From contig NZ_JAJJMN010000003.1 of the NCBI RefSeq assembly GCF_020905335.1, forward strand, positions 62,001 to 126,000: a stretch of DNA of 64,000 bases, in the 5' to 3' direction. A program made the translations under genes and the position numbers. The notes beneath the pieces were generated by a model, which was not told the DNA's origin, searched no databases, and was given only the letters and a program-made list of their open reading frames with translations. Positions 28,409-51,800 of the stretch are shown piece by piece. The stretch's first letter is position 1; each line of letters starts with the position of its first letter. This stretch comes from Flavobacterium lipolyticum. GTDB taxonomy: Bacteria; Bacteroidota; Bacteroidia; Flavobacteriales; Flavobacteriaceae.

Positions 28409-31400
28409 ATGAAAATAAAAGAAATATATGCACTGAATCCTTTACAGGAAGGAATTTTTTTTCGCTGGCAAATATCAGAAAATGAATATTTTGAACAATC
28501 CTGTTACCACATCTATGGGAAAGTTGAGGTGGAGTTGTTACAGAAAACATTTGATTTTTTGGTGTCAAGACACGATACCCTAAGAACCTGTTTTAACAAC
28601 ACTACCGTAAATGATATTTTGCAAGTGGTACTGGACAGTGTTCCTTCCGGTTTTTATTACCGGGACGAGAGCGCCAATGAAAATTTTTCTTTGGAGAATT
28701 TTAAAAAATCAGACAGAGACAAAGGATTTAATCTTTACAAAGGCTCACAAATAAGATTAACTGTTATTAAGCTACGGGAAAATGTATTTGAGTTTATCTG
28801 GAGTTACCATCACATTATTTTAGACGGTTGGAGTATTGAACTTTTAATAAAAGATTTTTTTTACGCCTATAAATGTTTATTGGCAGGTCAGGAGATTAAG
28901 CTACCTGCACCGCCAAGTTATTCAGCCTACAGCAAGTGGCTGATGGAACTTGATAAAAAAAGTATAGCGGCTTATTGGGAGGAATATCTTTCCGGATTTG
29001 AAACTAATACCGGAATACCATTTTTTAACCCGGAAAATCAAAATCGTCAGGATATGGAAGTTAAAGTACTTCATACGCTATCCGGAAAAAATAAAGGGAC
29101 TGTTACAGCACTCTGTCGGGAATTAGGAATTACCGAAAATATCTTTTTTCAAACCATTTGGGGAATACTGCTTGCCAAATACAATGATACCGATGATGTC
29201 GTTTTTGGGAGTGTAGTGTCAGGCAGACCTTCAGAAGTAGATCGAATTGAGGAAATGTTGGGGCTCTTTATTAATACGATTCCCGTAAGGATAAAATTCA
29301 ATGCAGAAGAAACGATAAAGAATATCCTGATCGATACCCAAAAAGAAGCCATAAGAAGTATCCCAAATCATTATATTCAACTGGCAGAAATACAATCCAA
29401 TAGTAATCTGGGACAGCAGTTGTTTGATACTTTGGTGGTTTATGAAAATTATCCTTCACAGGAGTATGCAGAAGATGAGTTGATTAATTCGGCTCAGGAC
29501 ACTTTAGAAGTAGTAGCGGTAGAAGCATTTGAAAAAACAAATTATAATTTTTCACTGGCTATAGTTCCGGGGATTGATACCGTGTTAAGGTTTACCTATA
29601 ATGCTCAAAAATACAGTTCGGAATTTATAGAAAACTTAAAAAAATCTTTTGAGTACCTCTACATTCAGGTTCTCAATAATCCCGACAGTTTATTTTCTGA
29701 AATTGATTTAGTTGCAGGAGAAGAAAGAAACAAATTATTTTTTGATTTCAACAGAGAGACTTTTGATATTACAGCAAACCATACGATCATCGGATATTTT
29801 TCTAAACAAGTCTTAAAAAATCCAAATAAAACGGCTGTAAAGTATAAGGAAGAATCTCTTAGCTATCAGGAATTAGATGAAAAAAGTAATAAACTGGCAC
29901 ATTATCTCATTCAGAATTATGATATAAAAGAGCACGATTTTGTTGCAGTCGCATTAGAAAGATCAGAAATGTTAATCGTAACTATTTTGGCCATTTTTAA
30001 ATTGGGTGCCGTTTATGTTCCAATTGACATTCATTTTCCGGAAGAAAGAAAAAAAATCATAGTAGAAAGCAGTCAATGTGTAGTAGTAGTCAATGAAGAT
30101 ACGATCAAAGAATTTGAAAACTCTACTCAGAATGAGACTGCTATAAACAGAGAAATAGAACTTTCTCAGATTGCTTATGCGATCTATACCTCAGGGTCTA
30201 CGGGAAAGCCCAAGGGAGTTATGGTGACACATCGCAATTTCAGTGTGCTTTTGGCCAATTGCAGAAAAAAATTCGGAACAGATGGTAAGACCCATTTCCC
30301 GGTTTTAGCGTCAAATTCTTTTGATATTTTTTTCTTCGAAGCTTTTTATCCTTTAACGATAGGGGGGACCATCACGATATTAAATTCTGAGACCATACAA
30401 GATCTTACGCTTTTGAGCAAAGAAATTGAAAAGATCAATGGCTTCCACGCTGTACCGGTTTTAATGAGACAGTTATTGGATTATAGTATTGATTTTGGTA
30501 TTGCAGATCGTTTCTCGCAGGTTACAAACGTATTTATGGGGGGAGAAGTTTCTTCAAACGAAACTTTGGAAGATTTGTCAAAGACATTCCCTAATGCTTC
30601 TATTCATGTATTGTACGGACCTACTGAGGGAACCATTTTTATAACGGGACAAACTTATTTACAGAAACAGAAAAGTTACAATCCGCAACTCATAGGAATA
30701 CCTAACAAAGGTTCAAAAATATACCTGCTGGATACCGCAAATAACCTGGTGCCCATAGGAGTTCCGGGAGAAATTTGTATTGCCGGCGAGCAAGTTGCAA
30801 ACGGATATGTAAATGATGAAGGCCTTGAAAGAGACGTTTTTATGACTGATTTTTTTTCCAGGAAGAAACTCTATAAAACAGGCGATTTAGCCCGCTGGCA
30901 TTTTAATGGAGTTATTGAATTCATTGGCCGAAAAGACAGTCAGATTAAATTAAACGGGTATCGTATCGAACTTGGTGAAATTGAAGCGGCACTTCGGGAA
31001 CAGGAAACCATTAAAAAGGCCATAGTTTTAGTGGACAACCAAAAGGATGATCAGAAAAGAATCGTTGCTTTTTATACGGGAGCTGCAGAACTGGACGAGA
31101 AATCATTAAAAAAACAGCTGCAGCAAAAATTGCCGTCGTATATGATTCCTTCAAAGATAATTTGGGTGGAGACCTTTCCAGTGTTGATCAATGGAAAAAC
31201 AAATGTGAAAGCCTTATTGACTTTAGGACAGCAAACCAGCAAAAGCGAACAATATATTTTGCCTAAAACCGAGTTGGAAGCAAAAATACTAAACATCTGG
31301 AAAGCGATCCTGTGTAATGAAAATATTGGCATACAGGATAATTTTTTTGAAATAGGAGGTAATTCCATTTCCCTTATGAAAATGGTACGGCTCATCAACA

Positions 31401-31585
31401 AAGAATTGGATATAAACTTAAAAGTACTCAATGCATTTAAGTGTGGCAATATCGAGGCACTTACCCATCATATTACACAAGATATAGAGCCTGGTCTTGA
31501 GAAAGTGAACGAAAAAAATTCTAAATCGGTTGACGTCGCCAATCAGACCCTGTCAATTTTAAAAAAGAAGCAGCAAATAAATTAA
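28409..31585 (+). CDS. NRPS subunit: C-A(Hpg-type)-PCP
   Basis: This is a single-module subunit of 1058 residues. The N-terminus goes straight into the C domain (IYALNPLQEG; HHIILDGWS at 134). The A domain (YTSGSTGKPKG at 593) is followed by a PCP with an unusual IGGNS (Ser986; GGHS or GGDS are usual). The A pocket reads D-I-F-H-F-G-L-I-F, identical by eye to that of the preceding gene's first A domain. The flanking C domains are also alike (PLQEG start, similar spacing), so the two C-A-PCP units look like duplicated modules. The substrate is inferred to be Hpg. The C-terminus (SILKKKQQIN) is lysine-rich and unlike the acidic tails elsewhere, which fits hand-over to the PKS subunit encoded 26 bases downstream. 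Confidence 0.93.
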   Translation: MKIKEIYALNPLQEGIFFRWQISENEYFEQSCYHIYGKVEVELLQKTFDFLVSRHDTLRTCFNNTTVNDILQVVLDSVPSGFYYRDESANENFSLENFKKSDRDKGFNLYKGSQIRLTVIKLRENVFEFIWSYHHIILDGWSIELLIKDFFYAYKCLLAGQEIKLPAPPSYSAYSKWLMELDKKSIAAYWEEYLSGFETNTGIPFFNPENQNRQDMEVKVLHTLSGKNKGTVTALCRELGITENIFFQTIWGILLAKYNDTDDVVFGSVVSGRPSEVDRIEEMLGLFINTIPVRIKFNAEETIKNILIDTQKEAIRSIPNHYIQLAEIQSNSNLGQQLFDTLVVYENYPSQEYAEDELINSAQDTLEVVAVEAFEKTNYNFSLAIVPGIDTVLRFTYNAQKYSSEFIENLKKSFEYLYIQVLNNPDSLFSEIDLVAGEERNKLFFDFNRETFDITANHTIIGYFSKQVLKNPNKTAVKYKEESLSYQELDEKSNKLAHYLIQNYDIKEHDFVAVALERSEMLIVTILAIFKLGAVYVPIDIHFPEERKKIIVESSQCVVVVNEDTIKEFENSTQNETAINREIELSQIAYAIYTSGSTGKPKGVMVTHRNFSVLLANCRKKFGTDGKTHFPVLASNSFDIFFFEAFYPLTIGGTITILNSETIQDLTLLSKEIEKINGFHAVPVLMRQLLDYSIDFGIADRFSQVTNVFMGGEVSSNETLEDLSKTFPNASIHVLYGPTEGTIFITGQTYLQKQKSYNPQLIGIPNKGSKIYLLDTANNLVPIGVPGEICIAGEQVANGYVNDEGLERDVFMTDFFSRKKLYKTGDLARWHFNGVIEFIGRKDSQIKLNGYRIELGEIEAALREQETIKKAIVLVDNQKDDQKRIVAFYTGAAELDEKSLKKQLQQKLPSYMIPSKIIWVETFPVLINGKTNVKALLTLGQQTSKSEQYILPKTELEAKILNIWKAILCNENIGIQDNFFEIGGNSISLMKMVRLINKELDINLKVLNAFKCGNIEALTHHITQDIEPGLEKVNEKNSKSVDVANQTLSILKKKQQIN

Positions 31586-34323: not shown

Positions 34324-34398
34324 CCCCATTATTCTGAATCATAGAATCGTAAAATATTCTTAGGACAATTTACTCTACTTACTTAAATCGAATTGATT

Positions 34399-37300
34399 AT
34401 GGATACACTACAGTTTTTGAATTATTTAACGGAAGAAAATATTACTATCCGGTTATCTGAAGATAATCTTCAAATTTCTTATACAAGTGAAGAGATTTCT
34501 GAGGCTGTGATGGAGGAAATAAAAGTACGAAAATCTGAAATCGTAGAATTTTTAAAACAGCAGCAGGAAACCAGAATGGAAGCAAGCATACCATTGGCAC
34601 CCGCAGATCTGATGTATTATCCGCTCACACCTTCTCAGACAAGATCATGGATTGTGAGCCATAATTGGGGCGATAATTATGCTTACAACATGTCAAAAAG
34701 CTTTCAGTTTGAAGGAGAATTAGACATTGCAGCGCTTGAAAAAGCCAGTCAGGAATTGATTTCCAGACACGAGAGCCTTCGAACTGTTTTTGCTGAAAAT
34801 GAAAGTGGTGAAATATGCCAGTGGATCAAAAGCCCTGAAACGTTAAATTTTAAGATCAGTCACATTGATTTTAGAGGAGAGGATACTTCAGAAGAAAGAT
34901 TAAGCAAGTTCATTAAAGAGGAGAGGGGAATACCTTTTGACCTGCAGACCGGTCCTTTATTGAAATTTTACTTAATTCGTTTAGAGGCAGATAAATGGTT
35001 GTTTTATATTATCATTCATCATATCATTTGCGACAGCAGATCATTCAATATTCTGATACGCGATTTATTCTTTTTCTATAAAGCCGAAGTAATGCAAATG
35101 GATGCTTTATTACCGGAGCTCAGAATACAATATAAAGATGTGGCGGTATGGAAAAGCAAACGTTTTGAGGATATAAATTTAAGTAAAGAAAAAGAATATT
35201 GGATCAATCAGCTGGGAGGAGAACTGCCTTTGCTGCAATTACCTGAAGATTATACCAGACCGGTGATTAGAAATTCTGAAGTGGGGATGCTAAGACGTAC
35301 CATTAAAGCCGAATCAGTAAAAGAGTTTAAGACGTATTGCAGAAACGAAGGCGGAACCTTGTTTACAGGATTGATGACTTTATTTAATTTAGTGTTCTAT
35401 AAGTTTAGTGAGCAGAAAGATATTATTTTAGGATTTCCGGTGTATGGAAGAGATTTTTCTGAATTGGAAGATCAAATAGGTTTTTACGCGGATACAATTG
35501 CTTTGCGAACCCGTTTTGAAGCGCAGAATACCTTTAAGGAACTTTTTAATATTGTAAATACCAATGCTTTCAATGCCTATGAAAACAGAGAGTATCCATT
35601 TGAAGAAATCGTAAATCAGCTTCAGGTAGAAAGAAATCCGGGCAGAAATACCCTATTTGATGTATTTGTCGTATTGCAAAATTTTGACGCTGATTCTCTG
35701 GAAGACGATTTCCTTCCGGGAGGATTAAAAGTGGTTGAATTTGCAGAACTGAAAGAAGGGTATTCAGCTTATGATCTTACGTTTAATTTTGCGGAATCCA
35801 AAGAGGGAAGCCTTTTTTACGAAATCGAATACAACTCAGCAATCTATCAGGAGGAAACAATAAAACGTCTGACCGATCATTTAGAGTATTTAATGACGGA
35901 AACCATCGCAAACGATAAAATTGCTATAAGTGCTCTGGAGAGCATCGATTCTGGTGAACGTAAAAGAATTTCAGAATGGAGCCGAAATCAATCTAATGTT
36001 ATTCTTTCTGATAAATTAACAGGAGATAGCCGTACAGCGTTGGATTTTGGTCTTTATTATTTCGGAAATACCGGAACAGAAGAAAATCAGTATGAAATAC
36101 TAATGATTGGAGCAGCTTATGCAGATCTTAATGGTTATAGTGCAGTCTGGACACCGGAAAGACATTTTAATGAATTTGGCGGACCTTTTCCAAATCCAAG
36201 TGTCTTGGGAGCAGCCGTAGCAGCAAGAACCAAAAATATAGGCATAAGGTCAGGAAGCGTTGTTGCAGGACTTCATCATCCCATCAGAATAGCCGAAGAA
36301 TGGTCGGTAGTTGATAATATTTCAGGAGGAAGAGCAGGCATCTGCTTTGCTTCGGGATGGAATGCTAATGATTTTGTTTTTTATCCTGAGAATTTTAAAG
36401 ACCGAAAGGATATTTTAATTCAGACCATAGAAGATGTTCGCTCGCTTTGGATCGGAAATTCGGTAAATTTTAAAGGAATTGATTCGATAGAGAAACCTTT
36501 TAAAATATTACCAAAGCCAGTTCAGAAAGAAGTTTCTGTTTGGATTGCCTGTACCGGAAATATAGAAACCTATAAAAGAGCAGGAGAAATAGGAGCAGGA
36601 ATTTTGACAGGATTGTTAAATCTTAGTTTTGATGAACTGGAAGAAAAAATTGCGGTATACAGAAAGGCTTACAAAGAAAATAATCATAAAGAAGGCGGCG
36701 ACAGAGTGGTACTCATGTTGCACACTTATCTGGATGAAACGGTAGAAAAAGCACAGGAAAAAGCAAGACCATCAATGAAGAAATATTTGCTAAAGTCTCT
36801 TGAAATGAATGGGAAAGAAGCTTTGGAAAAGAGCAGTGATCCATCACTTCAAAAAATAACAGAAAAGTCAGTTGACGAAATGCTGGATTTTTCGGTGAGC
36901 AAATATTTTAAAGAAGGCAGCCTTATCGGAAATTTAGAAAGCAGTTTACCGATCTTAAATAAAGTGGTAAAAGCAGGAGTAAATGAAATTGCCTGTTTAA
37001 TCGATTTTGGTATTGACAAAACAAGTGTGTTGGAAGGCTTACCTTATATCACAAAATTAAAAGATTCTTTTAACGCTGTACAAAAAGAGATTGGTGCAAC
37101 TAAAAAGGAGGACAGCAGTAAGAGTATTGAAACTTCGGTACTAAAACTTTTTAAAGAACAATATCTTTTGCATCCCCATAAGATTGCAGTTTCGGACGGT
37201 ACTGATTCCCTAACCTATGAAGCGCTTTACCAGAAATCAGAAAATCTGGCCCGATACTTACAATCAAAAGGAGCTAAAAAAGGAATGATCATCCCGTTGT

Positions 37301-38910
37301 GCATCAACCGTTCTGTTGATCAATTAGTGGGGATTTTGGGCATCCTGTTAACCGGAGCTGCTTTTTTACCCATTGATTCCGGTTTCCCAAACATAAGAAT
37401 TACGCAGATCATAGACGAAGTAAATCCTGAATTACTGGTAGCTCAAAAAGAAAACACGAGTCTTTTTTCTTCCGAAATAGTAAAAGTAGACATCCATGAA
37501 GTTCCCAATGTTAGGGACAGTATTTTCGAAGCGGTAGCAATAGATTCAAGTGATCTAGCTTACGTTATTTTTACGTCAGGGTCAACAGGAAAACCAAAAG
37601 GAGTAATGATCAGTCATCATTCACTTGAGAATGTAATCGTTTCATTGTCTCAGCAATTAGAATTGGATCAAACCATAAAATTTGTAGCAGTAACTCCTCT
37701 GATATTTGATATTTCACTTTTAGAAATCTTCTTGCCTTTAATCACTGGAGGGCAGGTTGTAATGACAAATGAAAAGGAAGGAAAAGACATTTATCATCTG
37801 AATAATTTTCTAAAAGAGAATACAGTAACTCACATGCTTACGACGCCAACAAGATGGAAAATGCTTTTGGACACAGGCTGGAAAAATACAGAAAATCTGG
37901 TGGTTATGGCTGCCGGAGAAGATTTGGATCAACAACTGAAAAATAATTTGGTCGCACTTACCGGTACCGGTATCTGGAATCTTTATGGCCCAACTGAAAC
38001 CGCCATCATCTCCAGTTTGCAATTTTTGGAACAAGACGATATCGTAAACATCGGAAAACCAATTGATAAAACAGGATTATATGTTTTGTCTGAAGAAAAA
38101 ATGCTAATGCCTCAGGGCGCTGTCGGAGAGCTTTACATTGCAGGAAGCGGACTTGCTTTAGGCTATTTTAAGGATATAGCACTTTCAGACGAGGCGTTTG
38201 TTTCCAATACTGTTGATCCTGAGATGGGCGATTTGTTATACAAAACGGGTGATTTAGTCAAATGGCTGCCGGACGGGACTTTGAAATATATGGGACGAAA
38301 AAAGAATCAGATAAAAATCAGAGGTTATCGTATTGATTTAAAAGAAATCGAAAATGTCCTGGAACAATACCAATCCGTAAAAAAAGCAATATTGTCCCTG
38401 AATGAAGATGAAAATGGTGAAAAAGAATTGACAGCCTATCTGCATAGCAATGAAAAAATAGATTATGTGTCATTAAGAACATTTCTGAAAAGCTATTTAC
38501 CGGATTATATGATTCCCGAAAAATTTAAGACCGTAAAGGAAATCCCGGTAACCGTAAACGGAAAAGCAGATCTCAAAAAATTACACCTTCTTAAAAATAA
38601 TTATACCATAAGCAATCAAAACACTTTTGTATTGGCGAGAAATGAGACGGAAAAGCAGTTAGCGGAGATTTGGAAGGACTTATTAAAACTGGAAGAAATA
38701 AGCGTAAACGATAACTTCTTTTTTCTGGGAGGAAGCAGTTTGAAACTTGCAAAAATGAAAAATGAAATCTATAAACGATTCGGTATACCGCCCGTTTCTT
38801 TAACCTTATTGCATCAGCTTACTATAGCCTCTTTCTCGGTTGAGGTAGAAAAATTAGTCAAACAGACGGAGGAAGTTGACGAAGAGGAATACGAGAAATT
38901 CAATATTTAA
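34399..38910 (+). CDS. NRPS subunit: TubC dock-C-luciferase-like monooxygenase-A-PCP
   Basis: I prefer the ATG at 34399 over the TTG at 34393 because the docking domain then starts like its paralogues (1503 residues). The order is TubC dock (1-52), C domain (HHIICDSRS at 207; Ser replaces Gly of HHxxxDG), a flavin-dependent luciferase-like monooxygenase (about 535-895; ALDFGLYYFGN, WTPERHF, GLHHPIR, SGGRAGICFASGW), an A domain (FTSGSTGKPKG near 1058) and a PCP (LGGSS, Ser1447). Such embedded monooxygenases are a known natural-product family related to bacterial luciferase. They hydroxylate or otherwise oxidise carrier-bound intermediates using reduced FMN. The A pocket reads D-I-L-L-M-A-L-I-I, near but not equal to Gly codes, so the substrate is left open. 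Sitting directly after the PKS subunit, the domain may act on the beta-keto intermediate or on the residue loaded here. The tail EEYEKFNI may dock to the TubC domain at 42865. Confidence 0.93.
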   Translation: MDTLQFLNYLTEENITIRLSEDNLQISYTSEEISEAVMEEIKVRKSEIVEFLKQQQETRMEASIPLAPADLMYYPLTPSQTRSWIVSHNWGDNYAYNMSKSFQFEGELDIAALEKASQELISRHESLRTVFAENESGEICQWIKSPETLNFKISHIDFRGEDTSEERLSKFIKEERGIPFDLQTGPLLKFYLIRLEADKWLFYIIIHHIICDSRSFNILIRDLFFFYKAEVMQMDALLPELRIQYKDVAVWKSKRFEDINLSKEKEYWINQLGGELPLLQLPEDYTRPVIRNSEVGMLRRTIKAESVKEFKTYCRNEGGTLFTGLMTLFNLVFYKFSEQKDIILGFPVYGRDFSELEDQIGFYADTIALRTRFEAQNTFKELFNIVNTNAFNAYENREYPFEEIVNQLQVERNPGRNTLFDVFVVLQNFDADSLEDDFLPGGLKVVEFAELKEGYSAYDLTFNFAESKEGSLFYEIEYNSAIYQEETIKRLTDHLEYLMTETIANDKIAISALESIDSGERKRISEWSRNQSNVILSDKLTGDSRTALDFGLYYFGNTGTEENQYEILMIGAAYADLNGYSAVWTPERHFNEFGGPFPNPSVLGAAVAARTKNIGIRSGSVVAGLHHPIRIAEEWSVVDNISGGRAGICFASGWNANDFVFYPENFKDRKDILIQTIEDVRSLWIGNSVNFKGIDSIEKPFKILPKPVQKEVSVWIACTGNIETYKRAGEIGAGILTGLLNLSFDELEEKIAVYRKAYKENNHKEGGDRVVLMLHTYLDETVEKAQEKARPSMKKYLLKSLEMNGKEALEKSSDPSLQKITEKSVDEMLDFSVSKYFKEGSLIGNLESSLPILNKVVKAGVNEIACLIDFGIDKTSVLEGLPYITKLKDSFNAVQKEIGATKKEDSSKSIETSVLKLFKEQYLLHPHKIAVSDGTDSLTYEALYQKSENLARYLQSKGAKKGMIIPLCINRSVDQLVGILGILLTGAAFLPIDSGFPNIRITQIIDEVNPELLVAQKENTSLFSSEIVKVDIHEVPNVRDSIFEAVAIDSSDLAYVIFTSGSTGKPKGVMISHHSLENVIVSLSQQLELDQTIKFVAVTPLIFDISLLEIFLPLITGGQVVMTNEKEGKDIYHLNNFLKENTVTHMLTTPTRWKMLLDTGWKNTENLVVMAAGEDLDQQLKNNLVALTGTGIWNLYGPTETAIISSLQFLEQDDIVNIGKPIDKTGLYVLSEEKMLMPQGAVGELYIAGSGLALGYFKDIALSDEAFVSNTVDPEMGDLLYKTGDLVKWLPDGTLKYMGRKKNQIKIRGYRIDLKEIENVLEQYQSVKKAILSLNEDENGEKELTAYLHSNEKIDYVSLRTFLKSYLPDYMIPEKFKTVKEIPVTVNGKADLKKLHLLKNNYTISNQNTFVLARNETEKQLAEIWKDLLKLEEISVNDNFFFLGGSSLKLAKMKNEIYKRFGIPPVSLTLLHQLTIASFSVEVEKLVKQTEEVDEEEYEKFNI

Positions 38911-38965: not shown

Positions 38966-40285
38966 ATGATGGAAAAAATAATTTCGCAACCGTCAATCGA
39001 TGTTGTAAACCCATTATTATTTTCTATGGGCGAAGATGTGATGGGATTTCTAAACGAAGTTCAGTTGCAATATCCTGAGGCAATTTCATTTGCATCAGGC
39101 AGACCAGACGCTAAATATTTCAATATCGGGCAATTTTCTGAATGTCTGGACTATTTTGTACAGCATAATGTTTGTGAAAAAGGGATTGAAGAAAATATAG
39201 TTTTGGAAAATCTGGGACAGTACAACAGAACCAAAGGAATCATAAATACAGAAGTTGCAAAATATCTGTTTATTGATGAGTTTATAAAAGTAAATCCAGA
39301 AGATATCCTTATCACAGTAGGAGCACAAGAAGCCATCGCCATTGGAATAACAACGCTTTGCGATCGGGAAAATGATGTTATTCTGGTAGAAGATCCCGCT
39401 TACATTGGGATAACACATTTTGCAAAAATCAATGACTACAAAATTGAAAGTATTCCGGTTATTGTAAATGAATCTTCCATAAAAGCAATTGAAGATAAAA
39501 TTTTGGAGCATCAGGAAAAGGGTAAAAAAGTAAAAGTGGTTTACGTAATTCCCGATTTTCAAAACCCTACCGGAAACAGCATGTCTTTGTCCAACCGCCA
39601 TAAACTTCTGGCATTGGCACGTTTGTATGATTTTGTGATATTTGAAGACAATGCCTACGGTGATTTTTATTATGAAAACGAAAAATTGCCTACTCTAAAA
39701 TCGTTGGATGAAAATGATACTGTAATCTACTTGAGATCCCTTTCAAAAACGATATACCCTTCTTTACGTCTTTGTTTAATGGTCGTTACACAAAAAGTAA
39801 AAGTACAGGGTAAAATTTTTGCCCTAAGCGATTTAATGGCGAAAACGAAAGGATACGTCACTGTAAATACCCCATCAATAATGCAGGCCATGTTTGGCGG
39901 TTTATTACTAAAGAACAAATTTTCGCTCGAATCCTTAAATGCTGAGAAACGGACAGGTATGAAAGAAAAGAGAGATCAGCTTTTAGAAAGTCTGAATCAT
40001 TTCTTTAATAAGGAAACACAGTACTGGGCAGAAAATATCAGTTGGAATTTACCTGCAGGAGGTTTTTTCTTAATTCTTAAAGTGCCATTTAAAGTGACTA
40101 AAGAAGATGTTATAAGATGCGCAGAAGTCAATAAAGTAATTTTTACCCCTATGTCTTTTTTTTACATGAACGAAGGAGGCGAAAAGGAGTTGAGGCTGGC
40201 CTTTAGTAATGTCACCAAAGAAGAAATCATAAACGGAGTGCAAAGATTGTCTGAGTTTATAAAATCGAAAGTAAAAAACCAATAA
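38966..40285 (+). CDS. hpgT: PLP-dependent aminotransferase, probable HpgT-type
   Basis: This 439-residue protein is a fold-type I, class I/II aminotransferase. The PLP Schiff-base lysine is Lys261 in SLSKT, followed by the phosphate-anchoring Arg in SLRL. ASGRPD near the N-terminus, DPAYIG, and the IPDFQNPTG segment (PLP pocket Asn and Pro) are also visible. It is translated from either of two adjacent ATGs (38966 or 38969). It lies 12 bases upstream of the 4-hydroxymandelate-synthase-like gene, which is followed by an oxidase. The three steps 4-hydroxyphenylpyruvate to 4-hydroxymandelate to 4-hydroxyphenylglyoxylate to Hpg need exactly such a transaminase, with Tyr as likely donor, which would also regenerate 4-hydroxyphenylpyruvate. 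The HpgT assignment rests on this context. The sequence alone shows only a general aromatic/aminoadipate-like aminotransferase. Confidence 0.82.
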   Translation: MMEKIISQPSIDVVNPLLFSMGEDVMGFLNEVQLQYPEAISFASGRPDAKYFNIGQFSECLDYFVQHNVCEKGIEENIVLENLGQYNRTKGIINTEVAKYLFIDEFIKVNPEDILITVGAQEAIAIGITTLCDRENDVILVEDPAYIGITHFAKINDYKIESIPVIVNESSIKAIEDKILEHQEKGKKVKVVYVIPDFQNPTGNSMSLSNRHKLLALARLYDFVIFEDNAYGDFYYENEKLPTLKSLDENDTVIYLRSLSKTIYPSLRLCLMVVTQKVKVQGKIFALSDLMAKTKGYVTVNTPSIMQAMFGGLLLKNKFSLESLNAEKRTGMKEKRDQLLESLNHFFNKETQYWAENISWNLPAGGFFLILKVPFKVTKEDVIRCAEVNKVIFTPMSFFYMNEGGEKELRLAFSNVTKEEIINGVQRLSEFIKSKVKNQ

Positions 40286-40296
40286 AAACTATAAAA

Positions 40297-41415
40297 ATGG
40301 AAAACAACAATGAAATAATCGTATCTGATTTTTTTAATATGGAGTACGATTTTGTCGAGTATTATGTGGGTATGGCTAAAATGGTAGTATTCTGGCACGT
40401 TAAAGCATTAGGTTTTGAAGTGATAGCTTACGCCGGACCGGAAACAGGTGTTTTAGATCGTTGTTCTTATTATATCGTAAAAAATGATATAAAACTGGTG
40501 ATCACCTCAGCATCACAGCCTAGTTCGTACAAAATAGTTTCTTTCGTAGATCTTCACGGGAACGGTATCAAGAGACTGGCCATAAACGTTGATAATGTTA
40601 AGGACTTCTTCGAAAGAGCTATGAAAAATGGGGCAATACCAGTAGAACATCCGCATTTAACCTCAGATGAAAATGGTTTTGTAGAACAGGCATCTTTAAA
40701 AATGTTTGATGATAATGAAATTGTACTCATCAATTATGATAATTATAATGGAGACTTTCTTCCGGGATATAAAAATGTACAGAGCGAATGGAACTTTGAA
40801 GGAGAAGATACCGGTCTGCAAAAAATTGACCACGTAGCTTGTGCCTTAAGACTCAACGAAATCAATTTATGGGAAAAGTATTTTAACAACATCTTCCTTT
40901 CTAAAACCGTGGTCGAATTTGACGAGAGAAAAGTAAAAGGCGAAAAGAAAATAGGGATGTTATTGAAAGTGCTTCAATCCGGTAATAAAAGCATTAATAA
41001 CGTTTTGGTTGAACCGGAACATGGCGTAAAAAATCAGGTACAATTGTTTATCGATCAAAACTACGGAACCGGAATACAGCATATCGCTTTTGAATCAAAC
41101 AACATTATTAAATCTGTAAAAGCATTGAGAGAGTCCGGTGTGAAATTTACCAGATATCCGGATTCTTACTATGAAAAATTAGCTTCGAAATATCCTGAAT
41201 TGGACGTAGAACCTTTAAAAAAGCACGGGATCTTGTGCGATGTTTTAGAGGGAGCCCTGCTCTTTCAAATCTTTACCACACCTATAGGAGACAGAGCTAC
41301 ATTTTTCTATGAAATAGTACAAAGAGTAAATGATTATCAGGGCTTTGGTTTAGATAATATCTACGCTCTGTTTGAAGCAATGGAAGAAGAACTGACACTT
41401 TCGAATAAAATTTAA
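40297..41415 (+). CDS. hmaS: 4-hydroxymandelate synthase / HPPD-family dioxygenase
   Basis: This 372-residue protein belongs to the 4-hydroxyphenylpyruvate dioxygenase (HPPD) superfamily. Two vicinal-oxygen-chelate halves are visible. The iron ligands are His179 (KIDHVAC), His262 (GIQHIAF) and Glu339 (FFYEIVQR). The N-terminal half has the family signature YAGPETGVLDR. HPPD makes homogentisate for tyrosine breakdown. The close relative HmaS makes 4-hydroxymandelate as the first Hpg step. The sequence cannot separate the two with certainty by eye. Placement between an aminotransferase and a 2-hydroxyacid oxidase inside an NRPS locus with two Hpg-type A domains favours HmaS. The start follows the aminotransferase stop by 11 bases and the next gene begins 5 bases after the stop, so the three are co-transcribed. 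Confidence 0.85.
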   Translation: MENNNEIIVSDFFNMEYDFVEYYVGMAKMVVFWHVKALGFEVIAYAGPETGVLDRCSYYIVKNDIKLVITSASQPSSYKIVSFVDLHGNGIKRLAINVDNVKDFFERAMKNGAIPVEHPHLTSDENGFVEQASLKMFDDNEIVLINYDNYNGDFLPGYKNVQSEWNFEGEDTGLQKIDHVACALRLNEINLWEKYFNNIFLSKTVVEFDERKVKGEKKIGMLLKVLQSGNKSINNVLVEPEHGVKNQVQLFIDQNYGTGIQHIAFESNNIIKSVKALRESGVKFTRYPDSYYEKLASKYPELDVEPLKKHGILCDVLEGALLFQIFTTPIGDRATFFYEIVQRVNDYQGFGLDNIYALFEAMEEELTLSNKI

Positions 41416-41420
41416 CAAGG

Positions 41421-42797
41421 ATGACAGGCTGCAAGACCGATATTATAAATGCTATAATTGAAATAGTGGGGCATGACTATGTATTAATGAATGCTGAGTT
41501 ATTGTACAATTATTCCAGAGACTGCACCTCTGATGAAGAGAGTATACCCTCGGCAGTAATCTTACCTAAAGATGAAAAAGAGATATCAAAAATTCTTAAA
41601 ATCTGTAATGAAACCAAGACCAGTATCACCGTGAGAGGCGGTGGTACCGGAGTCAGCAGAGGAGCATTATCTCATACAAACGGCCTGATACTTTCGCTGG
41701 AACGGTTGAATAAAATCATCGAGATTAATAAAATCGACAGGATTGTTACAGCAGAGTCAGGAGTGATCACTCAGGATTTGCGTAATGCGGTTTTAAAAGA
41801 AGGTCTAAATTTTCCGCAAAACATCAGCAGTGCCAACGCTTGTTTCATAGGTGGAAATATAGCAGTATCGAGTGGCAGTCCAAAATCATTGAAATATGGT
41901 ACGACTAAAGATTATGTCATCAATTTAGAGATTGTTTTACCTGATGGAAGTATTATATGGACAGGAAAAAATGTAACTAAAAATGCAACCGGTTATAATC
42001 TTACCCAATTGTTTACCGGAAGCGAAGGAACACTGGGCATCATCACTAAAGTAGTATTAAAACTAGTTCCTCCCGTGAAAGAACTGCTTCTCATGATTCC
42101 CTTTACTAAAATTGAGAAGCTGTTTGAAGGCGTACAGCAGTTTTTTGTAAAAGGATACGACGCTTCAAGTATTGAATTTATTGATCAGAAAGGAGTAGAG
42201 CTGGCCTCAAAATTTCTGGATAAAAAACAATGGAATTCTAAACGTATTGAAGGGATTTTATGGATCGAACTTGAAGGCACAGATTCAGAAAAACTAATGC
42301 AGCAGGCTATTGAAATCAGTGAATTTATCAGCACTTACACACCAGAAGAAATTAGCATAGCAGATACCCAAAACGAAGTGAAAGCACTATGGGAAATGCG
42401 TTCTAAAATTGGAGAAGCGGTTATTCATCATGTGTTTTTCAGAGACATCGACATTGTAGTACCCCGTTCTAAAATTGATGAAATGTACAAATCAATTGCA
42501 GGGATAGCCCAAAAATATGATTTTGAATACACGGTTTTCGGACATGTTGGGAATGGAAATTTTCATGTCAATATTTTTCAGGACAAACAAAGCAGTAAAA
42601 AGCAGTGGGAAGACCATCTGGCAATTTGGGTGAAAGCCATTTTCCTCAGAGCACTAGAACTGGGCGGAACCATTTCGGGAGAACACGGAGTTGGTAAAAT
42701 TAATCTTCCCTATTTAGAAGATGCCATGACCAACCATCAGATCCATATAATAAACGGCATCAGGGAGCTATTCGATAAAAACAGAATCATAAATTAA
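41421..42797 (+). CDS. FAD-linked 2-hydroxyacid oxidase (GlcD family), probable 4-hydroxymandelate oxidase
   Basis: This 458-residue flavoprotein of the GlcD / D-lactate dehydrogenase type has an N-terminal PCMH FAD domain with RGGGTGVSRGAL near residue 70, IGGNIAVSSG and GSEGTLGIIT. Its C-terminal FAD-oxidase domain has GHVGNGNFHVN near 373 and SGEHGVGK near 420. The family oxidises 2-hydroxyacids, usually the D (R) form. In this three-gene cassette the expected job is 4-hydroxymandelate to 4-hydroxyphenylglyoxylate. In the actinomycete Hpg pathways that reaction is done by an FMN-dependent enzyme of the lactate/mandelate dehydrogenase (LldD) family, so a GlcD-type enzyme here would be a non-homologous replacement. 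The ATG follows the hmaS-like stop by 5 bases, with AAGG just before it. Confidence 0.85.
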   Translation: MTGCKTDIINAIIEIVGHDYVLMNAELLYNYSRDCTSDEESIPSAVILPKDEKEISKILKICNETKTSITVRGGGTGVSRGALSHTNGLILSLERLNKIIEINKIDRIVTAESGVITQDLRNAVLKEGLNFPQNISSANACFIGGNIAVSSGSPKSLKYGTTKDYVINLEIVLPDGSIIWTGKNVTKNATGYNLTQLFTGSEGTLGIITKVVLKLVPPVKELLLMIPFTKIEKLFEGVQQFFVKGYDASSIEFIDQKGVELASKFLDKKQWNSKRIEGILWIELEGTDSEKLMQQAIEISEFISTYTPEEISIADTQNEVKALWEMRSKIGEAVIHHVFFRDIDIVVPRSKIDEMYKSIAGIAQKYDFEYTVFGHVGNGNFHVNIFQDKQSSKKQWEDHLAIWVKAIFLRALELGGTISGEHGVGKINLPYLEDAMTNHQIHIINGIRELFDKNRIIN

Positions 42798-42864: not shown

Positions 42865-45800
42865 ATGGGTTACGATTTATTTACAAAGCTGAAAAAACTT
42901 AAAGTTACTGTCAAAGTAATAAACAATAATCTGGATGTTAAAGCTCCCAAAGGTGTTTTAAATGAAGAACTATTAAAGGAAATCAAATCAAAAAAGGAAG
43001 AATTAATTGATCTGGTGAATAAATATGCCAAAGATCAGGTTAATGAAAGCCATGCTATTCCTGTCGCACCAAAAAGCGAACATTACCCGTTATCTTCTTC
43101 CCAGCTTCGATTATGGGTTCTAAGTCAGATTGATAAAGCAAACTTCTCCTATAATATTCCCGGAATTCAGGTTATTGATGAAGCATTGGATACTACTGCT
43201 TTTATGCTGGCCATTCGTGATTTGATTCATCGTCATGAAGTTTTAAGAACTGTTTTTAAAACCGTAGAAGAGGAAGAAGTAAGACAGTTTATTATAGCTC
43301 CGGAAGATTTTGAATTTCCTTTTCAGCAAATCGAAGTAAACGGTGATGAAGAAAAATTAAACGAAATCCTGACCGGTATAAGTAATACTTTTTTCGATCT
43401 TGAAAAAGGTCCTTTATTCAAGGGAGCTCTGGTAAAAGTTAACAATGACAGATTCGTTTTTGGGTATAATATGCATCATATTATCAGTGATGGCTGGTCT
43501 ATTGGTATCATGATTAATGAATTGCTTAAAAACTATGATGCCCGACGAAAAGGAGAAACCGTACAGAGTCATCCTTTGCAGATACATTATAAAGATTATG
43601 CTGTATGGCAGCAAAAGCAATTAGCAGACGAAGTGTTCAATAAAGAGAGAAAGTATTGGCTCACTCATCTGGAAGGTGATTTACCGATACTATCACATTT
43701 TGGAGATTTCCCCCGTCCGGCTATCATGAGTTACAATGGAAATGTGACAAGAAAGGATATACCCACAGCTTTGTATCAAAAGTTTAAATCCTTTTGCAGA
43801 GAAAATTCAGGTACTTTGTTTACAGGCTGTCTCAGTCTTATCAATATACTATTGCACAAATACACCGAACAGGAAGATTTTATTGTTGGGAGTCCGGTTT
43901 CAGGCAGAACACATAAGGACATGGCCGACCAGATTGGATTTTATGTAAACACCCTGGCACTTCGAACACAATTCGGAGCCGCTCATTCTTTTGAAGAGGT
44001 TTTTCAGAAAAATAAAATGGTAACCTTAAATGCAATTGAAAATCAGAATTACCCTTTTGATGAATTAGTGAATCATCTCAACCTAAAAAGAGACCTCAGC
44101 CGTAGTGCTTTATTTGATGTTATGATTGATATTCAGAACGAAAATCAGAGCGACGATCAAAAAGCAGGTACATCCTATAACGAATTATTAAACGGAGGGG
44201 TTAGTAAATATGATTTAACCTTTACGTTCATAGAAAAGTCTGATTCCCTGACGGTTGAATTGGAATATAATACCGATATTTTTACCGGAGAAACAGCAGT
44301 CGGATTCCTAAAAGATTTAGAAAATATAGTAGAAGCAGTAGCTCAAAATCCGGTGGAGAAAATTGGCTCTCTTCCTCTGAATATAAATAGGAGAACAGCT
44401 CATTCTAAATTAGAATCCCCTGAAGAAATTGTGACAAATGAAGAGATAACCCATACGCTGCCGTCAACTCCGCTTGAAAAAGCATTGGCGGGGTTATGGG
44501 AAGAAGTTTTAGGAATTTCGCACATCAGTATGGAAGATAACTTTTTTGATTTGGGAGGGCATAGTTTAAAAGCTTCCAGGTTAATTAGTAAAATTCATAA
44601 AGAGTTTCGTGTAAAACTACAGCTAAAAGATTTGTTCATTCATACAAGTTTAGCTTCTCAATACGACCTAATAACCAAAGAACAAGAGGTTGATTATAGT
44701 GAAATTCCTGTATTGGAGAAACAAAATGGTTACCCGCTTTCCATAATGCAGCGTCGTTTGTGGATCCTGAGCCAGCATGAAGCAGCCAATATCGCCTACA
44801 ACATGTCCGGGGCTTATGTATTTGAAGGGGAACTGGATTTCGATGCGTTAGAGAATGCATTTGTACAACTGATAGAACGTCATGAAATTTTAAGAACCAG
44901 CTTTAAAGAAAATGATCAAAATGAAGTGTTGCAATACGTTACACCACTTGAAGACATTCTTTTTACCATAAAAAATACTGACCTGAGCCATACAAACGAA
45001 ACAGTTCTCGAAAAACATTTGTTTGAAGATTTGTCAGCTCCTTTTGATTTGTCTTCAGGAACTTTGTTAAAAGCCAGTATCTATAAACAATCTCAAAACC
45101 GTTGGGTATTCAGTACCGTAATTCACCATATTATTAGTGATGCCTGGTCTATAGAAATCATTGTAAAGGAGTTGTTGCAGCTCTACAACAGTCTGGTAAC
45201 CGGCGTTCCGTCAGCATTAACTCAGCTGCCTATTCAATACAAAGACTATTCGTCATGGCAGCTTACAGAGCTAAGCGGTTTCAGATTGGAGTTGCATAAA
45301 AACTATTGGCTGAATCAGTTTAAAGGCGATTTACCTACTTTAGATTTAGCAGCAGGAAAGCAGCGTCCACTTATAAAAACATACAATGGAGGGCTGTATA
45401 CTAAGATGATTCCCCGTTCTTTAAGTGACAGATTTGATCAGCTTCTTAAAAGCCAGGAAACTACTTTGTTCATGGGATTACTTAGTGTAGTCAATGTTTT
45501 GTTTTACCACTATACCCAACAGGAAGACATTGTGATCGGAAGCCCTGTTGCAGGAAGAGATCACGCTGATTTAGAAAATCAGATTGGTTTTTATGTAAAT
45601 ACTTTGGCACTTAGGACTCAATTTTCGAAAAAAGACAGTTTCAATACAATCTTGTCTAAGGTAAAAAAAGTGGTTCTGGGAGCACATGAACATCAGTTAT
45701 ATCCATTTGATGATCTGGTTTCTTCCTTGGATATTCCAAGAGATATGAGTCGTAATCCTTTGTTTGATGTACAGGTTATTGTTCAAAACCAACAAGTATC

Positions 45801-48800
45801 AAACTCCAAAGGAATGGAGAATTTATCGGTTAACGAATATCAGGGAAAATTACCGGATTCCAGTGTGTTTGATTTGGTTTTTAATTTTGCTGATTCTGAA
45901 AATGGTTTAGCTACCAGTATCATTTACAATAGCGATGTTTTCGATTCAGAAAGAATAGAACAATTTGGAAATCATCTGGAGCAGCTATTAGCAGCTTTAT
46001 TGCAAAATGCAGAACTGCCGGTACAGGAATTGAAATGGTTACTAAAAGAAGAAGAACAATATTTACTTGATTTCAATTCAGAAACATTGGACTATGATAC
46101 AGCTAAGAACGTCTTAGATAGGATCAGAGAGCAGGTCGAAAAAAATCCCGAAGCCATAGCGGTATCTTTTGAAGGAAATCAATTGAGTTATTCCGAATTG
46201 GATAAACGTTCCAATCAACTGGCTCATTATTTATTGGAAGTGTACCAGATACAACCTAATGATTTTGTTGGAATGATGCTCGATCGTTCCGAATCGATCT
46301 TCATTGGTCTTTTAGGAATATTAAAGACAGGAGCTGCTTATGTTCCTATAGATCCCGATTACCCGGTTTCCCGAAAAGAATATATCCTGAAAGATACCAA
46401 CGTAAAGGCCCTGCTCACACAATCCGATTATATGTTTGATCTATCGTATTATGAGGGCGGAATATTCGCCATGGATGTACAGATGTACAGTCTGACAAAT
46501 TCAACAACCGCTCCTCAAATAACAGTTTTACCGGATCATTTGGTTTATATCATTTATACTTCGGGATCTACAGGAAATCCAAAAGGAGTTATGGTAACCC
46601 ATGGCAACCTACAGCATTCTTTAGCACCACGAGGCAATACCTATTCGCCAATAAAATGCTTTTTGTTATTGTCTTCAGTTGCTTTTGATAGTTCAGTCGC
46701 GGGGATATTCAGTACATTAACTACGGGAGGAACATTGTGTATCACCAGCAGCTCGGATATTGCTAATGTTAATTTTATCGCAGCTCTTATTGTTTCTCAA
46801 AAAGTAAGTCATTTATTAACAGTGCCTTCCTACTATAAACTGCTTTTGAATGCCTTATCAGATAAAGAATCTTCTATTGAACAAGTTACGGTAGCCGGGG
46901 AAACTTGTCCGATAAGTTTAATCGAAGACCATTTTAAAAGCAAAATAGGTCAATCAGGCTGTGATTTGTTTAATGAGTATGGTCCGACAGAATGTTCTGT
47001 TTGGAGCAGCGTTCATCAATATGAAGAAGGAAAACCGGTGACAGCAACTATCGGGAAACCTATTGCCAACACCCGTATTTACATCTTAAACGAAAAAGAA
47101 GATTTAGTTCCGCTAGGTGTGATTGGGGAATTGCATATTGGAGGTAGCGGCGTAACCAAAGGATATTTAAACAATTCGGAATTAACGGCCCAAAAGTTTG
47201 TAAAAGATCCTTTTAGTGAAGCAGGTTTAATGTATAAAACAGGTGATTTAGGCAGGTGGAATTCAGCCGGGGAAATCGAATTTTTAGGCAGAAAAGACAA
47301 TCAGGTAAAAGTGAGAGGATATCGTATTGAACTGGGCGAAATACAGTATGCTGTTGAACAGTACAGCCATATAGAAGCAGCGGTTGTTTTAGTAAAAGAA
47401 AACAAAACGGGTGATAACGAACTGTATGCTTATTTGTTAGAAAAGGAAGCAATAAACATCTCAGAGTTAAAACACCATTTAAAAGACTTGCTGCCTTCTT
47501 ATGCCGTACCCGCTCACTTTATTACTTTGGAAGCATTTCCGTTAACACCAAACGGAAAAATAGATACCAAGGCACTATTAGAAATAGGAGGCTCAGAAAC
47601 AGAAAGAGGAGCAGCATATGCAGCTCCGCAAACAGCAGAAGAAACAGCCCTAGTAAACATATGGGAAACCGTTCTGGACAAGAAAAAAATTGGTATAAAT
47701 GATCGGTTTTTTGATTTGGGAGGAGACTCTATTAAAGTGTTGAAAATTGTGAATGGTATTTATAACGAAATGCAGTTGGAAATTACAATTTCAGATGTCT
47801 ATAGCAATGATTGTATCTCGCAATTATCAGATTTTATAAAAAACAACAGAGCGTCACTGGACGTTAAAAAAACGGCTGTTACTGGAACCGGGAACCAGGG
47901 ATTAGAAGCTATTGATTTCATAAAGAACCGTGTTTTAGGATCTTTAAATGAAAACGACGCTGATGCCATTGAAGACGTTTACCCAATGAGCGACATTCAA
48001 AAAGGAATGATCTATGAGTCATTGAAATATGAAGGAGCGAGTATATATCACGATCAGATGATCAATCACCGCGAATTTAAAGATTTTGATGTTTCGGTTT
48101 TCAGAAAAGCCATGCAACTAGTGACTGAAAAGCATGAGATTCTGAGAACAGGATTTAATTTACAGGATCACGATCAGGAAGTTCAAATTCTATACAAACA
48201 AGCAGAAATACCGGTTGTGTATGAAGATTTATCTCAGTTGCAGTCCTTAAAAGAACAGGAAAAAGTTATTACAGCCTTTCTTCAGTCAGAATTGCTCCAT
48301 CCGTTTGATGTGACTCAGGCGCCATTATTTCGTATGGCTGCTTTTAATCTGGGCAATGATACAATTGTTTTTGTTTCGCAATGTCACCATGCCATTATTG
48401 ACGGCTGGAGTGATTCATTATTACTCACGGAAATCAATAATGTATACCTTAAATTACTTGAAAATCCTTCGTTTAAACCTGCTAAATTACAATCGAGTCA
48501 TAAGGATTATATGCTGCACCAATTGCAGGACAAGCGAAAGGAAGAGACTGCAGCATTTTGGACTAATGAATTAAACGATTACAACAGACTTGATCTGTTT
48601 ACTGAAAAAGAAACAGACGATTTTAAATTGTTCAGCTTTGAGAAAAAAGAGTTAGCAAAAATTGAAAGTCTAAAAAAGGCTTACGGTATCAGATTAAAAG
48701 AACTGGCTTTGAGTGCCTTTGTGTATACTTTAAAATTATACTCGTACAGCAATGACATTACAATTGGTCTGGTTGTAAATACAAGACCTGCCTTACCGGA

Positions 48801-51800
48801 TGCTGACGAAATGTTAGGCTGTTTTCTAAATACAATACCTTTCAGAGTTGAAGTGAGTAGGGATTTAAGTGGTGAAGATTTACTGTTGTTAGTAAAGCAA
48901 AAACTGATCGAAGTAAGTAATTTTTCGGATATGAGTTTGGCCAGTATCGCTTCTGTTACTAATGAGATTAAAGGATTAAACAATCCTTTCTTTGATATCA
49001 TTTTCAATTATGTTGATTTTTATTCTTACGATGCATTAGAAGAACAATCTAACGAAAAAGAAGAATCATATCTCGAGAATCAGGAATTAACCTTAAACGG
49101 AAAAGGAGTTACCAATACGTATTTCGATTTTACTGTTAACAATACCAATAATGCAGCATTGTTTGACTTTGCACAAACCAGAGCGCTCGTTAACAAAATT
49201 GAATTGTCTGAAATAGAGTCCGTGTACAAAAAAGTGTTTAGGCACATTGTAGAGCATCCGGAATCTTCATTAAAAGAACTGGATCATTTATCCGATGAGG
49301 AAAAGGAAATTTATGAGAATAAAAAGCAGAATGACTCTGTAACCGTAAACGAAGATCAGACCGTATTGGATTTATTTAACAGACAGGTCCTTCTAAACCC
49401 TGACTATCCGGCGCTGCATCACAATGGTGTAAATATGAGTTATGCCGAATTAGATCAGAAATCGAATCAATTAGGAAACTATCTTAAAAAACAAGGTATA
49501 GGGAAGGAAGATTTTGTGGCAATACTACTGGATCGCTCTATAGAAATGCTGGTTTCAATTTTTGGAATCATAAAAGCAGGAGCAGCCTATGTTCCTTTAG
49601 ACGAGGGTTATCCGCAGCAAAGAATCGATTTTATTTTAAAGGATACAGCCGCAAAAGCCATAATTTCTAAGCCGTCTCTTTTAGAAAACTTTTCAGAAGA
49701 ATCCTTTCCAAAAACGATATTAATTGACACAGACTGGGATGCCATCTCGCAGGAAAGTGTAGCAGAAACCGATCATAATCTTACTTCAAACGCTTTAATA
49801 TACAGTATATACACCTCTGGAACAACCGGAAACCCAAAAGGGGTTTATATTGAACACAAAGGAGTAGTAAATCTGGCAAACTCGTTAATAAAAAGATATA
49901 AAATACAGAAAGAAGAGAAAATTTTAGCTTTTTCTAATTATGTATTTGATGCTTCAGTGGAACAAATTTTTATTGCACTAAGCAGTGGAGCGACTCTAGT
50001 GTTATGTGATAAAGAGGATTTACTGGATAATGAAAAATTTGCGGACCTTTTGATGGAAAAAGAGATCACCCATATAGATGTAACACCAACTTACCTCGAA
50101 AATGTGATCCCAAATAAATACCATCTGAACAGAGTTGTGGTCGGAGGTGAAGAGTGCTCAATAGATCTAGCCAGAAAATGGGCGGCTCACACGGACTTCT
50201 ACAACTCTTATGGTCCTACCGAAACCACTGTATCTTCGACGATATATGCCTACGACAAAGAGAATGATAAAGATCTAAATCGCCTGCCAATTGGAAAACC
50301 AATTGAAAATACGACTATTTATATTTTAGACCATGCTTTGCAAATTGCGAAAACCGGAGTCGTTGGCGAAATGTATATTGGAGGTATCGGAGTTTCCAGG
50401 GGGTACATCAATCAGGAAGCACTTACCAAAGAGCGTTTTGTGACCAATCCTTTTGCCAAAGAAGAAACCTTATACCGAACAGGCGATTTGTGCTGTAGGT
50501 TATCGGACGGGAATATTCAGTTTTTTGGCAGGGCCGATGATCAGGTAAAAATCAGAGGTTACAGAATTGAATTGGGCGAAATCGAAAATGCATTTCTTCA
50601 ACAAGAAATAACAACTTCTGTTGCGGTACTGGCCAAAGCAAACAAATTAGGAGAAAAAGAAATTGTAGCTTATCTGGTGCCTGATGAACATTATGATGTG
50701 AAAGATATCCGAACCAGGTTAAAAAGCATTTTACCTTATTTCATGATTCCTTCTTATTTTGTTCCGATAGAAGAAATTCCATTAACAAAAAGTAGAAAAG
50801 TAGACCGAAATAAATTATTAGCCATCGAAATACACAAAACGGATAGCCTCAGATCGCTTGTTCCGCCGGAAAATGAAACCGAAAATACGATCCTTCAGAT
50901 ATGGCAGGACATTTTAGAAAAAAGAGACATCAGTGTTATGGACAATTTTTTTGAAATTGGCGGATATAGTCTGAAGGCGATCAAGCTAAAGGCAATGCTA
51001 AGAAGAAAAGTAGGCTTAGACATTTCGATAAAAGATCTTTATAACGCGCCAACGATCAGAGAATTGGCTCAGGGTAAAAAAACATCCGATGCTGCAGTGA
51101 TCCATTTACATGCCGGAGATCCTCAAAATACAATTTACTTCATACCGCCAATTCTGGGTAATTCTATAATGTATCATCCTTTGGCAAAAGTATTAGGGAA
51201 TGAGTTTAATTCGATTGGTTTGCAATACAAAGGATTAGAGCCTGAGGAAGAGCTTTCTCAGTCTATTGAACAAATGGCCGCTTATTTCAGCGCAGAAATT
51301 AAAAAACGTCAGAGCAATCAGCCGTTTGTGGTTTTGGGATATTCAATGGGGGCTTCAATTGCCTTTGAAGTAGTTAAAGAACTGGAAAAACAATACGATG
51401 CCATTGAATTGGTTTTGGTGGACAGACCAACGTCTCTAAATGAAAGCAACGATACGGAGCATATTGACGAACAGGCCAATTGGCTGCTTGATGAATATCA
51501 GAAGGTGATTGATTTAAGTAAAGACCAAAAAGCAAGTGTTTTGTCTTTTATGAAAAACAACCTACTGCTGGACAATCAATATACACTTCAGGGTAAAATT
51601 TCCAGTACGATATATGTTCTTGAATCCTCGGAGAATGAATTAAAAAGTAATATGAAGGACTGGCAGGATTATACCAATGGAGCGTTAGTACACGATTACC
51701 TGCCAGGGACACACTGGGAAGCTTTCAACGGGAACAATTTTGACAAGTACGTTGAAATTTTTAAAAGTAGCATTCAAAAAACAAGTATAGAAACCAACTA

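Follow-up and report, generated by a model that had tools for sequence, protein, structure and literature searches.

A probable 4-hydroxyphenylglycine supply cassette of variant build in a nonribosomal peptide synthetase locus of Flavobacterium lipolyticum

Introduction

Glycopeptide- and ramoplanin-type antibiotics contain 4-hydroxyphenylglycine (Hpg) as a key component. The Hpg producers named in the literature consulted are actinomycetes, and the closest known supply route is the actinobacterial HmaS-Hmo-HpgT/Pgat pathway (vancomycin, balhimycin and calcium-dependent antibiotic type). Here we analyze a window of 64,000 nucleotides from the 5.77 Mb genome of Flavobacterium lipolyticum (contig NZ_JAJJMN010000003.1, positions 62,001 to 126,000; G000:C3:62001-126000), in which three plus-strand genes encoding an aminotransferase, a dioxygenase and a flavin-dependent oxidase sit between two nonribosomal peptide synthetase (NRPS) genes. 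This putative cassette follows the same three-step logic as the actinobacterial pathway, with which it shares, in a broad sense, an aminotransferase family, and a VOC-family dioxygenase with a hydroxymandelate synthase (HMS)-type pocket. However, the dioxygenase falls outside the actinobacterial HMS clade (approximately unbiased (AU) test against a single HMS clade, p 0.0025), and a flavin adenine dinucleotide (FAD)-dependent GlcD-type oxidase replaces the flavin mononucleotide (FMN)-dependent Hmo. Judged by its genes, the cassette is a variant rather than a member of the canonical pathway, with the same logic, a first enzyme of apparently separate descent and a different oxidase.

Other known systems resemble the cassette in part. 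In a variant found on Streptomyces plasmids (loci L012, L013 and L100; L104 coincides with L012, and the two count as one locus), an HMS lacking Ser at position 223 (window numbering throughout) is accompanied, as in the window, by a GlcD-type FAD oxidase and an HpgT-type aminotransferase. However, the FAD oxidase of this variant is only 25-29% identical to that of the window, and its HMS belongs to the actinobacterial clade. These three loci contain no FMN Hmo match and carry an Asp/Glu-racemase-family gene, which had no match above 60 bits in the Bacteroidota loci described below. 4-Hydroxyphenylpyruvate dioxygenase (HPPD, TIGR01263) belongs to the same family as the window dioxygenase, has the same iron ligands and is in some cases 41-47% similar to it, but its pocket residues Ser, Asn and Phe are Leu, Val and Ile in the window enzyme, and its genomic context differs. 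Finally, the formadicins are beta-lactams of nocardicin-like structure and so would contain Hpg-like units. They are named as a Bacteroidetes natural product in PMC9248904; no formadicin gene cluster was seen for comparison.

Results

We propose that the three genes most likely form a self-contained Hpg supply cassette for the surrounding NRPS, because of the pocket residues of the dioxygenase, a second, housekeeping HPPD encoded next to homogentisate dioxygenase elsewhere in the genome, the arylglycine-type aminotransferase, and the co-occurrence of the dioxygenase with a particular adenylation (A) domain pocket. A sequence-only reading of the window had described a set of Hpg precursor genes that pairs with two A domains of Hpg type, and on pockets, context and co-occurrence this is the best-supported reading. 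It had also reported three packed genes with gaps of 5-11 bases, two of them encoding an aminotransferase and an HPPD/HmaS-family dioxygenase; the open reading frame (ORF) coordinates, the gene calls and the gaps (11 and 5 nucleotides) are correct, and the two proteins match Aminotran_1_2 and the TIGR01263 family, respectively. In the proposed pathway, the HPPD-derived dioxygenase would decarboxylate 4-hydroxyphenylpyruvate and hydroxylate its benzylic carbon, not the ring, giving 4-hydroxymandelate. The FAD-linked D-2-hydroxyacid-type dehydrogenase would oxidize this to 4-hydroxybenzoylformate, from which the HpgT-like aminotransferase would form Hpg, possibly with tyrosine as the donor, which would regenerate 4-hydroxyphenylpyruvate. 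Hpg would then be loaded by two A domains, the first of the 22097 gene and that of the 28409 gene. We infer all of these reactions, their substrates and the product from gene identity, pocket residues, phylogeny and co-occurrence.

The dioxygenase scored 276.3 bits against the HPPD model TIGR01263 (276.1 in a second scan), just below the curated cut-off of 277. It contains H179, H262 and E339, the 2-His-1-Glu iron ligands of the HPPD/HMS family, which are invariant in the family alignment. Its pocket residues are L223, V238 and I355, at positions where HPPDs have Ser, Asn (in the motif PINEP) and Phe (in GNF). We compared the best 80 of 532 loci, comprising 17 Bacteroidota HMS loci (including the near-identical F. 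tructae-type loci L014 and L018), 4 HMS-like loci of other phyla and 59 HPPD-type loci. Ser/Asn/Phe was found in 57 of the 59 HPPD-type loci, the other two (L067 and L074) giving no usable ORF and being left unscored, and in all six further HPPDs, while all 17 Bacteroidota loci have Leu/Val/Ile. Actinobacterial HMS have Ile, Leu or Val at 238 and Ile or Val at 355, and mutation at these two positions is reported to switch HPPD to HMS. In S. coelicolor Hms, Ser221, Ile236 and Ile355 are named as pocket-gate residues in PMC3720870; they align to 223, 238 and 355 of the window enzyme, which differs from Hms in having Leu at the Ser221 position. At the substrate-determining positions proposed for comparison with HmaS and HPPD, the window enzyme thus has the HMS-type V238 and I355 instead of the HPPD Asn and Phe, and these residues make it most likely a hydroxymandelate synthase in function.

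In an unrooted tree of 52 chosen rows, a subset of the fetched sequences, the actinobacterial HMS formed one clade (support 100/100) and the Bacteroidota dioxygenases formed their own (100/97). The window dioxygenase falls outside the clade of A. orientalis and S. coelicolor HmaS. The Bacteroidota clade and four HMS-like enzymes, whose sources are Acidobacteriota and one metagenome-assembled genome (MAG) of Moraxellaceae, made up a group of 18 rows (100/100), which in turn grouped with 16 HPPDs of other phyla (34 rows, 100/100). A single clade of all HMS-type enzymes was rejected, being 53 log-likelihood units worse (AU p 0.00254). The tree requires two changes between HPPD-type and HMS-type enzymes. 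Because HPPD is the widespread form, we read these as two gains, which suggests that the HMS-type pocket arose twice from HPPD. The four HMS-like enzymes are encoded at L031, L036, L032 and L073; NRPS-sized genes with A domains lie near those of L031, L036 and L073, and an FAD oxidase adjoins those of L032 and L073.

The third gene encodes FAD_binding_4 and FAD-oxidase_C domains (Pfam), i.e. a GlcD/VAO-type flavoprotein whose closest Protein Data Bank (PDB) relatives are LctD, glycolate oxidase, and D-lactate and D-2-hydroxyglutarate dehydrogenases. With 330 bits against GlcD (TIGR00387), below the equivalog cut-off of 567.9, it is by sequence a member of the GlcD superfamily but not GlcD itself. 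A Streptomyces FMN Hmo, used as a query, matched neither the window nor the Bacteroidota loci above 60 bits, and this result and the domain content rule out a canonical FMN-dependent Hmo. The earlier label of 2-hydroxyacid oxidase therefore holds as a broad name, but not if Hmo is meant.

The type of oxidase appears to follow residue 223 of the dioxygenase. Among ten actinobacterial HMS loci in the plasmid collection, we found FMN Hmo in six (L011, L094, L101, L102, L103 and L170), an FAD oxidase in three (L012, L013 and L100), and neither within 12 kb in L099. Position 223 is Ser in all six loci with FMN Hmo, Thr or Ile in all three with an FAD oxidase, and Thr in L099. The 17 Bacteroidota and 4 other HMS-type enzymes all have Leu223, and an FAD oxidase adjoins the dioxygenase in 14 of these 21 loci. 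HMS without Ser223 are thus found near FAD oxidases in 3/3 actinobacterial and 14/14 other loci that have one. By its title, PDB entry 3zgj is the S221M V223F Y359A mutant of S. coelicolor Hms, which we presume to be inverted in enantioselectivity. According to PMC6677016, Hmo is specific for (S)-mandelate and leaves (R)-mandelate unchanged. Because of this specificity and the residue 223 pattern, we tentatively propose that Bacteroidota evolved a second HMS out of HPPD through two pocket substitutions of the same kinds, and that a recruited FAD-dependent D-hydroxyacid dehydrogenase would oxidize its product, (R)-4-hydroxymandelate. We consider this scenario plausible but short of probable. 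Such a route would replace the (S)-hydroxymandelate/FMN Hmo path of actinomycetes, as Leu223 together with a D-hydroxyacid-type oxidase hints. The pattern is suggestive only, since it reflects about two independent events. Two observations weigh against an (R)-route: seven non-actinobacterial Leu223 loci have no FAD oxidase seen adjoining the dioxygenase, which slightly lowers our estimate, and L099 has Thr223 yet neither type of oxidase. Among solved structures, the closest to the Streptomyces FAD-type HMS is 7yvv. Its PDB molecule name is HPPD, and a possible identity as an (R)-hydroxymandelate synthase was not used as evidence.

We examined whether the surrounding NRPS genes encode A domains suited to Hpg. 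The first A domain of the 22097 gene and the A domain of the 28409 gene both have the code DIFHFGLIF, which is equal at 6 of 9 positions (DIFH.GL) to the Hpg code DIFHLGLLC given in the sequence-only reading. That reading had reported this shared pocket, and both codes were confirmed, including His278. The positions were read on MAFFT alignments; one of these shifted position 278 and gave another letter, and His278 was placed by eye from the raw segments SFHAVP and GFHAVP. Because the two domains are only 40% identical overall, they are not fresh copies of each other. An A domain from a Streptomyces Hpg locus has the code DAFHLGLLC with His278, and residue 278 is Leu in the A domains of phenylglycine (Phg) modules at two Streptomyces loci, so His278 favours Hpg over Phg as the predicted substrate.

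The dioxygenase and the A-domain pocket also co-occur across genomes, at E-value limits of our choosing. Five of 348 Flavobacterium genomes have HMS (E<=1e-90), and exactly these five have an Hpg-type pocket (E<=1e-40); they include related genomes and so are not independent. Among 397 Flavobacteriaceae genomes, HMS was found in three, and the pocket (E<=1e-33) in two of these and in no other genome. The third (G096) corresponds to the L028 genome, the two agreeing at the dioxygenase locus across 2,000 compared bases, and the L028 genome has five Hpg-type A domains (E 1e-30 to 1e-32). These five lie near the cassette in a Flavobacteriaceae MAG cluster (G749:C1:123467-139774), which would likely make an Hpg-rich peptide.

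The aminotransferase is 33-38% identical (243-293 bits) to those of Streptomyces Hpg-, Phg- and dihydroxyphenylglycine (Dpg)-type loci; the next best aminotransferase of its own genome is only 26% identical. Matches occurred in 1666 plasmid records, and we viewed the context of 12 of the 20 listed. Nine of the 12 are arylglycine-type loci, six with an HMS gene (L140/L094, L103, L102, L100, L101 and L011), one Dpg-type with a type III polyketide synthase (PKS) gene (L134) and two Phg-type (L136 and L139), the Dpg and Phg labels being our reading of neighbouring genes. Because the other three contexts (Vibrio, Rhizobium and a non-NRPS Streptomyces gene) differ, the family would be arylglycine-type only in a broad sense. 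In a quick tree, the Bacteroidota aminotransferases came out as a separate group next to their actinobacterial counterparts, with weak support (SH-aLRT 71); this tree and the equally quick one of the FAD oxidases have long branches. L127 had no match in this comparison.

The cassette is present in this Flavobacterium, as the sequence-only reading held, but it is not unique to it: it recurs across Bacteroidota, in Flavobacterium, Kordia, Chitinophaga and, partly, Hymenobacter. All three genes are contiguous in 11 of the 17 Bacteroidota loci and the aminotransferase and dioxygenase genes in 16. Among relatives with a name, the closest are F. tructae CCUG 60100, whose dioxygenase is 100% and whose aminotransferase is 97.9% identical, and Flavobacterium sp. 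UGB4466, with 99.7% and 99.3%, respectively. We found 397 relatives of the dioxygenase; 120 of them were listed, and wherever their source names give a taxon it belongs to Bacteroidota. The name Chitinophaga nivalis is attached to three HMS-type proteins (P0011, P0019 and P0041), for each of which the longest contig is 8,565,697 bases. A blastn search of the cassette against the plasmid collection gave no match.

Several observations weigh against an Hpg cassette. Over its whole sequence, the dioxygenase is 26-33% identical to actinobacterial HMS, less than to some HPPDs (41-47%; Zixibacteria, Neomarinimicrobiota, Ignavibacteria and others); other HPPDs are 28-37% identical. The aminotransferase is also 34-38% identical to enzymes of Vibrio and Rhizobium NRPS loci and to one non-NRPS Streptomyces gene product. 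Within the flanks that were fetched, just 8 of the 17 Bacteroidota loci (L014, L016, L017, L018, L022, L024 (twice), L027 and L028) carry an A domain with the motif FH[AS]VP before YGPTE. Four of the ten relative genomes searched, some of them MAGs and possibly incomplete, had no Hpg-pocket match at E<=1e-20, and two of the six that did, both Hymenobacter, carry Asp278. No FAD oxidase lies beside the dioxygenase at L019, L020, L021 and L029, the contig of L023 ends there, and L030 lacks the aminotransferase. All ten genomes encode a GlcD-type protein (E<=1e-30); the best is 40-41% identical and located elsewhere in the genome for L019, L020, L021 and L023, and 28% identical for L029.

These observations raise the question of whether the dioxygenase is instead a second homogentisate-forming HPPD, serving pigment formation or tyrosine catabolism and placed in the NRPS cluster by chance. 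Its TIGR01263 score lies just under the cut-off, and several sources label its relatives HPPD. A predicted structure (16 sequences, mean predicted local distance difference test score 68) matched HPPDs and the HMS structure 2r5v alike, giving no discrimination, and was left out of our reading of residue geometry. However, the pocket lacks the HPPD Asn and Phe, and the genome encodes a separate HPPD (C1:1582856; 37% identical to the cassette dioxygenase), and it is this one that homogentisate dioxygenase adjoins. Homogentisate dioxygenase was matched in 49 of the 59 HPPD-type loci and in none of the 17 Bacteroidota cassette loci, where an arylglycine-type aminotransferase instead adjoins the dioxygenase in 16. 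We consider a second HPPD very improbable.

Two further alternatives accept an HMS-type dioxygenase but change its substrate or the fate of its product. If the substrate were phenylpyruvate, the cassette would make phenylglycine or another arylglycine. S. coelicolor Hms does accept phenylpyruvate, with a turnover of 0.88 per s against 4.5 per s for 4-hydroxyphenylpyruvate (PMC3720870), and the window aminotransferase resembles those of Phg- and Dpg-type loci as closely as those of Hpg loci. Both A domains, however, have the His278 of the Streptomyces Hpg domain rather than the Leu278 of the Phg modules, and we regard this as an improbable outcome, if slightly less so than a second HPPD. That 4-hydroxymandelate or 4-hydroxybenzoylformate is itself incorporated into the peptide or diverted would fit those relatives that have no neighbouring oxidase. 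Nevertheless, this too seems very improbable, given the aminotransferase beside the dioxygenase in 16 of 17 loci and the A-domain pockets that retain Asp235, the ligand of the amino group.

NRPS genes extend beyond both ends of the window (Table 1). The NRPS directly upstream of the cassette has its luciferase-like monooxygenase domain inserted between the condensation (C) and A domains. The gene at 31612-34323 is a PKS gene with ketosynthase (KS) and acyl carrier protein (ACP) domains; the roughly 315 residues between them have no Pfam match, and the scan found no acyltransferase domain match in the gene. Two CmlA-type diiron beta-hydroxylases (15662-17278 and 51829-53457) each adjoin an NRPS gene with the A code DSAL[IT]AEVW, a pairing that suggests two beta-hydroxylated residues in the predicted peptide.

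Table 1. Cassette genes and NRPS genes of the window (T, thiolation domain; PLP, pyridoxal 5'-phosphate; 4-HPP, 4-hydroxyphenylpyruvate; reactions are predicted)
Feature	Position	Strand	Basis
PLP aminotransferase, HpgT/PglE kind (predicted 4-hydroxybenzoylformate to Hpg)	38966..40285	+	Aminotran_1_2, class I/II (Pfam)
HMS-type VOC dioxygenase (predicted 4-HPP to 4-hydroxymandelate)	40297..41415	+	TIGR01263 match; Fe ligands, pocket residues
FAD-linked GlcD/VAO-type 2-hydroxyacid dehydrogenase/oxidase (predicted 4-hydroxymandelate to 4-hydroxybenzoylformate)	41421..42797	+	FAD_binding_4 + FAD-oxidase_C
NRPS, C-A-T-C-A-T	22097..28348	+	A codes: first DIFHFGLIF (Hpg-type), second DAFWLGGTF
NRPS, C-A-T	28409..31585	+	A code DIFHFGLIF (Hpg-type)
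NRPS directly upstream of cassette: C, luciferase-like monooxygenase domain, A (DILLMALII), T	34393..38910	+	
NRPS directly downstream of cassette: C-T-C-A-T-C-A-T, thioesterase-like GYSMG	42865..51801	+	sequence motifs only

Discussion

In the open literature searched, which leaves most subscription journals outside its scope, we found no precedent for hydroxyphenylglycine with Bacteroidetes, Chitinophaga or Bacteroidota, and the term is absent from the 10 papers listed of 2,270 that match several of the genus names. Likewise, an FAD oxidase in Hpg synthesis was not evident from titles or the starts of abstracts in this incomplete set. If the cassette functions as proposed, Bacteroidota would have a second, differently built route to Hpg, which would serve as a marker for finding new Hpg-containing peptides. 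It would also be a natural replicate of the switch from HPPD to HMS, and an (R)-hydroxymandelate synthase might be obtained from it.

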